From assembly GCF_012933555.1 (NCBI RefSeq), contig NZ_JABBPK010000001.1, positions 2,396,001-2,460,000 of the forward strand: a stretch of 64,000 bases of DNA, read 5' to 3'. A program made the position numbers and the translations under genes. The notes under the pieces were generated by a model. That model worked only from the letters and a program-made list of their open reading frames with translations, made no database searches and was not told the DNA's origin. The stretch is from Niallia alba (lineage in GTDB: Bacteria; Bacillota; Bacilli; Bacillales; Cytobacillaceae). The first letter of the stretch is position 1. Each line of letters opens with the position of its first letter. Of this stretch, positions 61,264 through 64,000 are shown piece by piece.

Positions 61264-61707
61264 ATGAGAAGATATCAATTGTATTTAATTAAAGAAAAAA
61301 TCGCCATTCATTATAACGGTAGAGAACGCTTGTTTTACAATTTATTTTCGGACCATACTAAAACAGACGATGGACAACCATTAAAGGAAATTCTTCAAAA
61401 ACAGGTTGATTTTATTACACTGCCTATTTCCAAATGGATGATCGAGAATCAATTATATGCCGCTTTGCAGAGAAATAAGAGCTTCCAATATAAAGATGGT
61501 GTGTTTTATATTGAAAATGGAAATTTAAGCAGCGCATCATTAATGATGAAGGACGATTATTTATATATAGAAGCAGATGGTTATTATGACGCGGAATCCA
61601 TTTTCTTTGAAATTATTCGAAAGCACGAGCCTTCCTTTTTAGCAATAGATATAGAAAATGATCGATTTGGCTGGTTAAAACCGATAAAAGAAAGAAATTT
61701 TGTGTAA
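61264..61707 (+). CDS. sirA: SirA, sporulation inhibitor of replication
   Basis: The 147-aa protein matches the SirA (YneE) family in length and at the C-terminus (LMMKDDYLYIEADGYYDAES, IFFEIIRKHEPSFLAIDIEN, RFGWLKPIKERNFV). SirA binds DnaA domain I to block new rounds of replication when cells commit to sporulation. ATG 61264 is preferred over the TTG at 61192: it gives MRRYQLYLIKE like known SirA, with GGTTGGTGAAGAG in front. The upstream Spo0A box fits its regulation. Confidence 0.93.
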   Translation: MRRYQLYLIKEKIAIHYNGRERLFYNLFSDHTKTDDGQPLKEILQKQVDFITLPISKWMIENQLYAALQRNKSFQYKDGVFYIENGNLSSASLMMKDDYLYIEADGYYDAESIFFEIIRKHEPSFLAIDIENDRFGWLKPIKERNFV

Positions 61708-61793
61708 AATGGAGAAATTCTGTAACAGATATTGTATAATATTATCTGGTCTAGTACACTAAAGTATAGACAACATGAAGGAGGAAAAAAGAT

Positions 61794-62012
61794 ATGCCTT
61801 GGTACGCTTGGTTGAGTATTGTCGTAGCATTGATCGCCGGTATTGTTATCGGATTTTTTATTGCGCGTAAATACATGATGAACTACTTAAAGAAAAACCC
61901 ACCAATTAACGAGCAAATGTTAAAAATGATGATGATGCAAATGGGAATGAAACCTTCTCAAAAGAAAATCAATCAAATGATGACAGCGATGAACAAACAA
62001 CAAGGAAAATAA
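61794..62012 (+). CDS. yneF: YneF, UPF0154 small membrane protein
   Basis: The 72-aa protein has one N-terminal span ([20 protein letters not shown]) followed by a Met-rich tail ([20 protein letters not shown]). This is the YneF signature. Its function is unknown. GAAGGAGGAAAAAAGAT is the ribosome site. In B. subtilis the next gene is ccdA; here it is not. Confidence 0.95.
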
Positions 62013-62106
62013 TAGGACAAGCTAGTAGCAAAGCCTATTTTTCTGATTTGATAGGAGAGTATTCAGTCATTATTTATAAATAAATGGTAATCTCATCAAA
62101 ACTTCT

Positions 62107-62156
62107 TAAACCATATTTTTCTGTGAATACACAGCAGGAAAATATGGTTTTTATTT
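62107..62156 (+). terminator. Terminator of yneF
   Basis: AAACCATATTTTTCTG pairs with CAGCAGGAAAATATGGTTT around an 8-nt loop with a small bulge, then TTT. Confidence 0.75.
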
Positions 62157-62225
62157 GTTTTTACAGAATTTTATATACTAACAGAAGTGAAGGATGAAAG
62201 GAAATAAAAGAAAAGGAGATTTAGT

Positions 62226-62762
62226 ATGTTAACATACCAGATTAGACTAGAAAGCCTATACACTAAAATGGCATACATCCTTTATAAATCGAGGCAAGTA
62301 GGACGAAGTAATCTAGATGACGAAGTGGAGTCATACACTGATCTAAAATTAGTCCCAGTGATGCAATATGGAAATGAAATGTTAAAAGAAGGATTGATAG
62401 AAGAAGATTTGGAATATATTTTCTCATTAAGAAAAATAGAATACAGTAAAAACCCAATTTACAGTGGGGATGATTTGAAATTAATAAGTATATGTTTTAA
62501 GTACTTCATTCTCATCGCACAAGGTGATTATATGGAATTTAGCGATTTTAGTCGTTTAATTCTTCGTTATGAGAATGTTGAGAATAAACATTCATCTTTG
62601 GTTCAGTCAATAAATAGTTTAGAAGATGCGGAAGAAAAGAAAGTTCCTATTAGTTATGAAGAATATCTTAATCAAGTGGAGGAGAGAAAAAACAGCAAAA
62701 AACTCCTTTTATCTAAAGAAGACGTAGATCGATTGTTGTATCGTATGAATGAAGAAAAGTGA
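62226..62762 (+). CDS. Uncharacterised 178-aa protein
   Basis: I do not recognise the family. The protein is hydrophilic and mostly helical, with LKLVPVMQYGNEMLKEGLIE, LKLISICFKYFILIAQGDYM and a charged C-terminus (KKLLLSKEDVDRLLYRMNEE). There is no signal peptide. AAAAGGAGATTTAGT precedes the ATG. It occupies the place where ccdA lies in B. subtilis and stands just before a palindrome and an ISLre2 element. Confidence 0.6.
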   Translation: MLTYQIRLESLYTKMAYILYKSRQVGRSNLDDEVESYTDLKLVPVMQYGNEMLKEGLIEEDLEYIFSLRKIEYSKNPIYSGDDLKLISICFKYFILIAQGDYMEFSDFSRLILRYENVENKHSSLVQSINSLEDAEEKKVPISYEEYLNQVEERKNSKKLLLSKEDVDRLLYRMNEEK

Positions 62763-62800
62763 TTGATGTATGAGTAAAATGTTTGTGGGAGAATAAATAT

Positions 62801-62846
62801 CCTTTTTGTCTAGTTGGGGGACGAGTCCCCCAACTAGACAAAAAGG
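62801..62846. repeat. Perfect 46-bp palindrome
   Basis: Arms of 22 nt (CCTTTTTGTCTAGTTGGGGG plus AC) flank a 2-nt centre GA, with no mismatch. The 3' arm ends AAAAAGG, so there is no T tract for termination in either direction. It lies about 20 bp before the apparent left end of the ISLre2 element. Confidence 0.8.
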
Positions 62847-62952
62847 CCACCAAGCGAAAGCGCGGTAGCTGGAAAAAATTAAGTATTAAAAAAGAGAGCT
62901 TCCTTTTGTAAAGTAGAGTTTGACTAGAAAACTACGAAAAGGAGAGGCTCTC

Positions 62953-64000
62953 ATGAATCAATGTAACATAAAAATGCCATCATTAAAAGAATTGGAAAAA
63001 ACTTTATTTCGAACACTACAAATGACGTTTCAAGAAATCCTTATTCAAACGTTAGAAAATTGGGATCAAGAGATTGCCAAGCAACGAGACAAAAGAAGAT
63101 TTGCTTTACGTGATAAACGAGAAATACGATTAGATACAGCGTTTGGAGCTGTGGAGCTGAAGCGTAATTATTATTTTGATCGTGTGACTAAAAAATATAT
63201 TTGTCTATTAGATCACTATTTACAGTTTCAGGGGAATAAGGGATTTAGTCCGCTACTAGAAGAATGGGGGTTAGAACTAGCGACGAATGGCTCCTCCTAT
63301 CGAAAGGCGGTGGAAACGTTCGAACAATTTTTAGGCTATTCGGCGATGAGCCACGAAGCATTACGGCAACATCTTCTTCAAACAAGCGTACTTCCCGCTA
63401 AGGAAAAACGCCCTTTTCAAAAGGTATTGTTTGTCGAAGTAGATGGATTATATGTGAAGAGTCAAGAAAAGAAAAAGCGTGGATGGGAGTTGAAATTCGC
63501 CGCTGTACACGAGGGATGGAAAGAAAACGGAAAGCGAATCAGGCTCCGAAATAAAAGGCATTTTCTTTATGAAGGAAAAGAACCCTTTTGGGAAGCCTTT
63601 GAAACGTTCTTACAGAATCATTATGCGTATGATCCTACCCAAACCTTGCTTATTATTAATGGTGATGGAGCAGGCTGGATAACGGCATGTCGGGAGTATT
63701 TTCGGGAACGCGCCTTTTTCACCATGGATCGTTTTCATGTCGCTCGTTCGATGAAGCAACTAATGAAGAGCCATCCTCGATACCGCTACATGAAAAGAGC
63801 GTTAAGAAACTACCAGGTAGAAACATTACTTCTAGAGTTGAATAGCGCAGTAGGAACAATGGATACACCAGAAAAAGAAGAAAAACTAGAGCATTTCCTT
63901 GCCTTTTTAACGCATCATCAGGAAACCATAAAAGATTACCGTAGTTGGTTACAGGAAAAAGGTGTGGACACGACAGCGTATCGTCCAATGGGAAGTGCAG
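62953..64000 (+). CDS. ISLre2-family transposase (UPF0236), cut by the window edge
   Basis: The frame from ATG 62953 is open for 349 codons to the end of the window. It reads MNQCNIKMPSLKELEKTLFR at the start. Family marks are LRDKREIRLDTAFGAVELKR, LFVEVDGLYVKSQEKKKRGW (first catalytic Asp) and LLIINGDGAGWITACREYFR (second Asp), then FFTMDRFHVARSMKQLM. The missing 3' part should carry the third acidic residue. The ribosome site is AAAGGAGAGGCTCTC. The left border of the element is probably near 62866-62870 (GGTAGCTGG). Confidence 0.9.
   Translation, partial: MNQCNIKMPSLKELEKTLFRTLQMTFQEILIQTLENWDQEIAKQRDKRRFALRDKREIRLDTAFGAVELKRNYYFDRVTKKYICLLDHYLQFQGNKGFSPLLEEWGLELATNGSSYRKAVETFEQFLGYSAMSHEALRQHLLQTSVLPAKEKRPFQKVLFVEVDGLYVKSQEKKKRGWELKFAAVHEGWKENGKRIRLRNKRHFLYEGKEPFWEAFETFLQNHYAYDPTQTLLIINGDGAGWITACREYFRERAFFTMDRFHVARSMKQLMKSHPRYRYMKRALRNYQVETLLLELNSAVGTMDTPEKEEKLEHFLAFLTHHQETIKDYRSWLQEKGVDTTAYRPMGSA

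Follow-up and report, generated by a model that had tools for sequence, protein, structure and literature searches.

A hairpin-plus-tail module inside ISLre2, IS3 and ISL3 insertion sequences, a candidate primosome assembly site of the phiX174 type

The window, a stretch of 64,000 nucleotides from the genome of Niallia alba, ends within an insertion sequence of the ISLre2 family, and the palindrome described here is found near the left end of this element. The features concerned are collected in Table 1. The part of the transposase that lies in the window scores 220.7 bits against NCBIfam NF033529 (cut-off 200). The transposase, the terminal repeats and the 9-bp direct repeats of ISLre2 insertion sequences are all shared, and the element is a member of this family.

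Table 1. Features of the ISLre2 element in the window and the basis on which each was placed.
Feature	Position	Strand	Basis
ISLre2-family insertion sequence, continuing past the window end	62768..64000	+	17 aligned left ends; NCBIfam NF033529
Left terminal inverted repeat, GTATGAGTAAAATGTTTGTGGGAG	62768..62791	+	start common to 17 of 17 copies
Palindrome, 5' arm	62801..62822	+	arm complementarity
Palindrome, centre dinucleotide GA	62823..62824	+	alignment of 17 copies
Palindrome, 3' arm	62825..62846	+	arm complementarity
Conserved 21-mer (tail), CACCAAGCGAAAGCGCGGTAG, with mini-hairpin GC-GAAA-GC	62848..62868	+	phiX174 F/G-like part
Second leader hairpin (borders approximate)	62893..62952	+	RNA fold
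ISLre2 transposase gene, open beyond the window	62953..64000	+	NF033529 and PF06782

The palindrome, as computed from the complementarity of its arms, occupies positions 62801-62846 and has the form 22+2+22 nt: the arms are 100% complementary and lie 2 nt apart, giving 44 paired bases and a 2-nt spacer. An initial annotation had described a perfect palindrome of 46 bp, which holds for the 22-nt arms and fails at the centre, where the GA is not palindromic by itself and is left unpaired. That annotation had rightly seen that the arms of the window copy are free of mismatches and are followed by no T tract. The sequence 3' of the stem is CCACCAAGC, and the lack of a T run after the stem rules out an intrinsic terminator, in agreement with the initial annotation. 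The runner-up among close inverted repeats within 61500-64000 has only 16 nt at 94%, and when a 74-nt stretch containing the palindrome is folded as DNA it gives z = -9.1, with none of 200 shuffles equally good; given these two results, the palindrome is beyond what chance would produce. The two strands of the window module fold about equally well as DNA, with energies of -27.8 kcal/mol for the minus strand and -27.3 kcal/mol for the plus strand. Downstream of the palindrome is a conserved 21-mer, CACCAARCGNAAGYGCGGTAG, which is referred to here as the tail.

A search of the same genome with 62801-62952 gave 17 matches, all over the full query length and with identities of 94-100%. Alignment places the left end of the element at 62768 (GTATGAGTAAAATG...), with all 17 copies alike inward of this point and their flanks differing outward of it. 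In all 17 left ends the palindrome occupies element positions 34-79, that is, it begins 33 nt in from the end, and its arms are perfect in 16 copies, the other (L025) having one mismatched pair. The left terminal repeat partly matches the reverse complement of the right end, CTCCCACAAAAACTTGACTCAATC. A right end could be defined in 15 copies, 13 of them 1641 bp long, one 1624 and one 1639, and direct repeats of 9 bp or more are found just outside the ends of 13 of these 15 full-length copies, the two in which they are absent being L017 and L020. The copies with no defined right end are L019, which is cut at position 229, and the window copy, which is fused to another element. The palindrome is therefore internal to the element and not next to its left end, as it had first been described. 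The same annotation had suggested that it might be a preferred target or a resolution site in host DNA, to be checked by looking for palindromes at other ISLre2 copies and for direct repeats at both ends. Both are indeed found, the right end of the window copy itself having been lost; however, the palindrome lies inside the element and travels with every copy, and the direct repeats lie outside the ends. A target site is thus refuted by the element boundaries and the direct repeats, and we regard any reading as a target or resolution site as scarcely credible. Finding the palindrome in relatives that lack the insertion sequence, proposed as a counter-test, is not applicable because the palindrome is element sequence.

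The window copy is joined by its right end to the right end of another ISLre2 element, the junction falling at element position 1614. The fusion locus runs from 62768 to about 2 kb beyond the window (2458768-2461997 of genome contig 1) and contains two different ISLre2 elements in opposite orientation. The right termini are missing from both, and inspection of the outer flanks by eye revealed no evident direct repeat. The leader also contains the second hairpin listed in Table 1, which pairs the presumed ribosome-binding site of the transposase, AAGGAGAGG; by eye, a fold resembling it seems to be present in the leader of L120. This hairpin is a feature apart from the palindrome and tail, and from its predicted fold it possibly has a role in translational control of the transposase.

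Hairpins followed by a tail of this kind are found in other insertion sequences. In the same genome, a second ISLre2 element (6 copies) has a hairpin of unrelated sequence at the same place and, after it, a tail that fits the same pattern, CACCAAACGGAAGTGCGGTAG, and an IS3-type element (4 copies) has a palindrome and a related tail, CACCAAGCAAAGCGCGGTAG, after its transposase gene; the 162-aa C-terminal piece of this element scores 94 bits against the IS3 profile, which is under the cut-off of 160. Among 193 genomes of the family, 14 have the pattern CACCAANCGNAAGNGCGGTAG; these represent 9 of 25 genera, and a backward control pattern is present in none of the 193. Across the phylum, a pattern search matched 3 of 398 genomes, these being the window's own, G037 and G482. 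The match in G482 is phiX174 sequence itself, and is probably a sequencing control.

Scanning the genome collection with the tail pattern identified 116 sites, of which 113 were assigned by script, on the basis of an end sequence or a transposase motif on the same strand, to ISLre2 (61), IS3 (34) or ISL3 (18). Among the three leftover sites, L126 resembles IS3 and L205 resembles ISLre2 when viewed by eye, and L118 (Alteromonas), which has no hairpin, is probably a chance match. Profile searches on one example per family confirmed the IS3, ISL3 and ISLre2 transposases. Judged by record title, the hosts of module-bearing sites are mostly Bacillaceae-type, and E. coli genomes gave a single match, on a plasmid. 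Eight of the 116 sites are too near a contig end for a hairpin to be tested. At 104 of the remaining 108, a hairpin of varying sequence with a score of at least 12 is found upstream of the tail, compared with a control of 99 viral-contig sites with a looser tail, almost all of them chance matches, where the score is never above 9. The distinct hairpins scoring at least 14 have lengths of 43-52 nt, and 45 of the 51 counted stop one base short of the tail.

In the IS3 and ISL3 elements, the gene has the module on its 3' side, on the sense strand. The right repeat was matched convincingly in five of the eight copies tried, and begins 1-12 nt past the tail. For ISLre2, 30 loci were found by profile, and the tail is present in 21 of these, on the transposase-sense strand in every case (21/21), being on the 5' side of the gene in 16 and on the 3' side in 5. 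All but one of these 21 tails have a hairpin score of at least 12, the exception (L317) being cut by a contig end. It follows that the strand is kept and the position is not. The module is carried by only part of the ISLre2 family, a tail of the searched form being absent from 9 of the 30 loci examined, some of which are fragments; hairpins of other arm sequence recur within other ISLre2 elements. An ISLre2 module 3' of the transposase gene, again on the sense strand, was noted in L312, L315, L319, L320, L340 and L343, the last of these in Psychrobacillus phage Perkons.

In a set of 63 distinct arm pairs, which divide by sequence into 22 groups, pairing is kept throughout. This set was preselected for a hairpin, and the unbiased figure for pairing is the 104 of 108 sites given above, set against none above a score of 9 among the 99 mostly chance sites. 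The palindrome is thus selected as well as internal to the element. It had been noted at the outset that perfect arms of this length imply either a recent origin or selection, and it is the second of these that is borne out, the arms pairing despite their divergence. Where mismatches do occur in the arms, G-T is more frequent than A-C on the sense strand (21 against 8 events, p = 0.024), an excess that is expected if the sense strand folds as a single strand, be it RNA or DNA. The loops of the mini-hairpin include GATA, GTTA, GAA and GTA, which are outside the GNRA tetraloops of RNA. GNNA and GNA loops form a stable type in DNA, and these four loops fit that type. The loops AAA (L032-L035, L313 and L317) and GTAG (L342) belong neither to the stable DNA type nor to the RNA type.

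The module was also found in phages with single-stranded DNA. A 35-base query from the window matched three phage records. Two of these are Microviridae, in which the gap after the replication initiator gene contains a mismatch-free hairpin of 11 or 12 pairs before the tail, and the third is an ISLre2 element within Psychrobacillus phage Perkons. Of the 17 records matched by a 30-base query from one of these Microviridae, 16 belong to the Microviridae according to their name or taxonomy, and one match is to a phiX174 relative at 2353-2371; the reversed control query gave no Microviridae among the 20 listed of its 27 matches. Four weak matches to Dulem virus (E = 8) are on the minus strand of the records, and the one that was examined is antisense to its genes.

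In phiX174 itself (NC_001422), the gap between genes F and G contains a hairpin and ACCAAGCGAAGCGCGGTAG on the same strand. We take this gap to be the PriA (n') primosome assembly site, which Shlomai and Kornberg are said to have placed in the F/G intergenic region in 1980. The window copy has the same order of hairpin and then tail on one strand, with a loop that is one base longer (GAAA for GAA). However, spacing and stem length differ: the distance from stem to tail is 9 nt in phiX174 and mostly 1 nt in the insertion sequences, and stems are 10-15 bp in the microviruses examined compared with about 15-23 bp in most of the insertion sequences. The phiX174 site also belongs to a phage, whereas the window module is carried by an insertion sequence and its function is putative. 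In place of the PriA hexamer AAGCGG, the window copy has AAGCGA, and AAGCGG is found in variants with a GGAA loop, such as L102. The 19 tail bases of phiX174 are also present in four ISLre2 loci (L314, L316, L318 and L322), after a 20-pair stem with one mismatch and one G-T. They occur as well on pHTA426, a Geobacillus plasmid, next to a broken ISLre2 gene with partial profile matches only. This may be the GKP33 homologue of ISGka4, and transposition of ISGka4 is reported to have been observed.

The exact triloop tail was found in 11 viral contigs, three of which (L347, L352 and L355) carry the F capsid gene of Microviridae. Two others, L349 and L353, have a gene of the Zot type that is typical of filamentous phages, and in all five of these contigs the tail is on the gene strand. 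Hairpins are strong in L347, L349 and L353, absent or weak in L352 and L355, and weak also in L346, L350 and L354. The sequences suggest that the site may be used by filamentous phages as well. In the two filamentous-phage-like contigs, L349 and L353, an 18-bp perfect hairpin with its tail lies close to where a large open frame begins.

We propose that the palindrome and the 21-mer form one module, and that this is a primosome assembly or complementary-strand start site of the phiX174 type, to which, judging from sequence comparison, we would give a probability of roughly 70%. A published list of eight copy-out/paste-in families includes ISLre2, IS3 and ISL3, and the pathway is described there as requiring host replication of a circular intermediate (PMC9333248). 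Figure-eights are described as being turned into double-stranded circles by host replication, and a copy-out circle intermediate has been reported for the ISLre2 family. The primosome is described as converting phiX174 single strands to double strands (PMC4129139). The module would act as folded single-stranded DNA of the transposase-sense strand. In copy-out, the transposase would join both ends on one strand to form a figure-eight, synthesis by the host, starting at the 3' end thus freed, would displace the joined strand, and the displaced strand would be copied to give a double-stranded transposon circle. The displaced strand needs priming, and hence the role would be a fit one for a primosome assembly site: PriA and its loader proteins would assemble a primosome at the hairpin and mini-hairpin, and the element would be spared reliance on chance priming. 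The model predicts that the displaced strand is the transposase-sense strand. Exposure of a single strand in transposition, binding of PriA and a gain to transposition are what we infer from it. Several observations weigh against the proposal: stem length and spacing are unlike those of phiX174, the window copy has AAGCGA, some loops belong to neither stable type, two capsid-bearing contigs (L352 and L355) have the tail and lack a clear hairpin, the Dulem virus match that was examined is antisense, and the two strands of the window module fold about equally well. Given that 9 of the 30 ISLre2 loci, some of them fragments, have no tail of the searched form, the module is not essential to copy-out, and elements that do not carry it would rely on other priming.

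A hairpin with no replication role, shared by descent or exchange and hitchhiking with the ends of insertion sequences, would be expected to occur in many copies, near element ends, in three families of insertion sequence and in mostly Bacillaceae-type hosts, as is the case. It would not be expected to keep its pairing and its tail while its arms diverge fully, nor to appear in single-stranded DNA phages at what, for phiX174, is a recognised place of strand initiation. Moreover, only 1 of the 116 genome sites lies outside a recognisable end of an insertion sequence, so that spread of the hairpin by itself seems unlikely, and we consider such a passive origin improbable. A REP-type site, as recognised by HUH transposases, was considered from the terminal GTAG alone.

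The orientation and wobble data are compatible with RNA as well as DNA. The module, always on the transposase-sense strand where this could be assigned and with G-T wobbles outnumbering A-C, might thus be an RNA element of the transposase mRNA, its hairpin and GNRA-like mini-hairpin serving in translation, termination, decay or shielding from outside transcription. In the window it stands in the leader, ahead of the second hairpin over the ribosome-binding site, and it has a sub-threshold match to the Rfam family RT-3. We nevertheless find an RNA element rather unlikely, in that the module comes after the gene in IS3, in ISL3 and in 5 of the 21 ISLre2 loci, is present in intergenic regions of single-stranded DNA phages and on a small plasmid, and has triloop, GATA and GTTA variants that do not fit GNRA. 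Nor did four other loci that carry the module give an RT-3 match at E <= 0.1. RT-3 was the sole known RNA family to come close. Membership of RT-3 was rejected at 29.3 bits against a gathering threshold of 40.5, and at the gathering threshold no Rfam family matched within the module in eight other loci.

The centre of the palindrome also bears on this choice. Its dinucleotide is GA in 10 of the 17 copies, TC, which is the exact inversion of GA, in 6, and GC in 1. Copies L014 and L018 (GA) differ from L021-L024 (TC) only at positions 56 and 57 of 1641, and the chance that two random changes would give an exact inversion of the centre is about 8 in 10^8. TC is also found on another background, in L019 and L020, with 106 nt separating it from the next variable site; it may have arisen there by a further inversion or by gene conversion over a short tract. 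In an ISLre2 element of another genome the centre has 4 nt and reads GATA or its inverse, TATC, between identical arms. A spacer that inverts between perfect arms is a sign of a hairpin formed by DNA and so argues against an RNA element, an assembly error being the alternative for sequences taken from assemblies rather than reads. The initial annotation had offered a replication-sensitive cruciform as one of its readings, and the evidence does point to a DNA hairpin that matters in replication.

A wider proposal may be made tentatively, and we would rate it at slightly under even odds: copy-out insertion sequences of the three families may pass through a phiX174-like stage, in which the transposase-sense strand is set free as a circle of single-stranded DNA, which a PriA primosome converts to double strand at a site borne by the element, the centre inversions being scars of the folded single strand. 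If this is true, the element brings its own strand-conversion origin. The host factors that turn the figure-eight into a double-stranded circle are, to our knowledge, poorly defined, and copy-out/paste-in is described as the pathway of a majority of bacterial insertion sequence families. The module suggests how some families of jumping genes may get their circular copies replicated, and a primosome site on the element would make the question of circle replication testable by simple deletion. A search of the open-access literature found no description of a primosome assembly site within an insertion sequence in the titles and abstract openings of the matches listed.

Two systems may be likened to the proposed module from their descriptions. 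A theta plasmid of the same bacterial group is described as having a PriA-dependent site, in this case on a replicon (PMC5703833). Integrative and conjugative elements (ICEs) of Mycoplasma, which have related transposases, are described as having a putative single-strand origin between the transposase gene and the terminal repeat; this resembles the putative single-strand origin of a plasmid, and the element forms circles (PMC3942029), but it is not an insertion sequence.

It is worth adding that the module is also found on small plasmids, the one examined being a MobV plasmid of 2546 nt. The 5386-nt plasmid records H23-H28 and contig 14 of G482 (L365) contain phiX174-like sequence, and are probably control DNA. 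The leader of the ISLre2 locus L326 has a hairpin of 25 pairs, and the tail after it is a different one; this is perhaps an initiation site of another type. In the viral contigs L212 and L214, tandem units of the form CACCAA-stem-GCGGTAG are found about 310 nt upstream of a gene judged by eye to be integrase-like; their hairpin scores 9, their mini-hairpin shows a compensating C-G change, and they may be a distant relative of the module.
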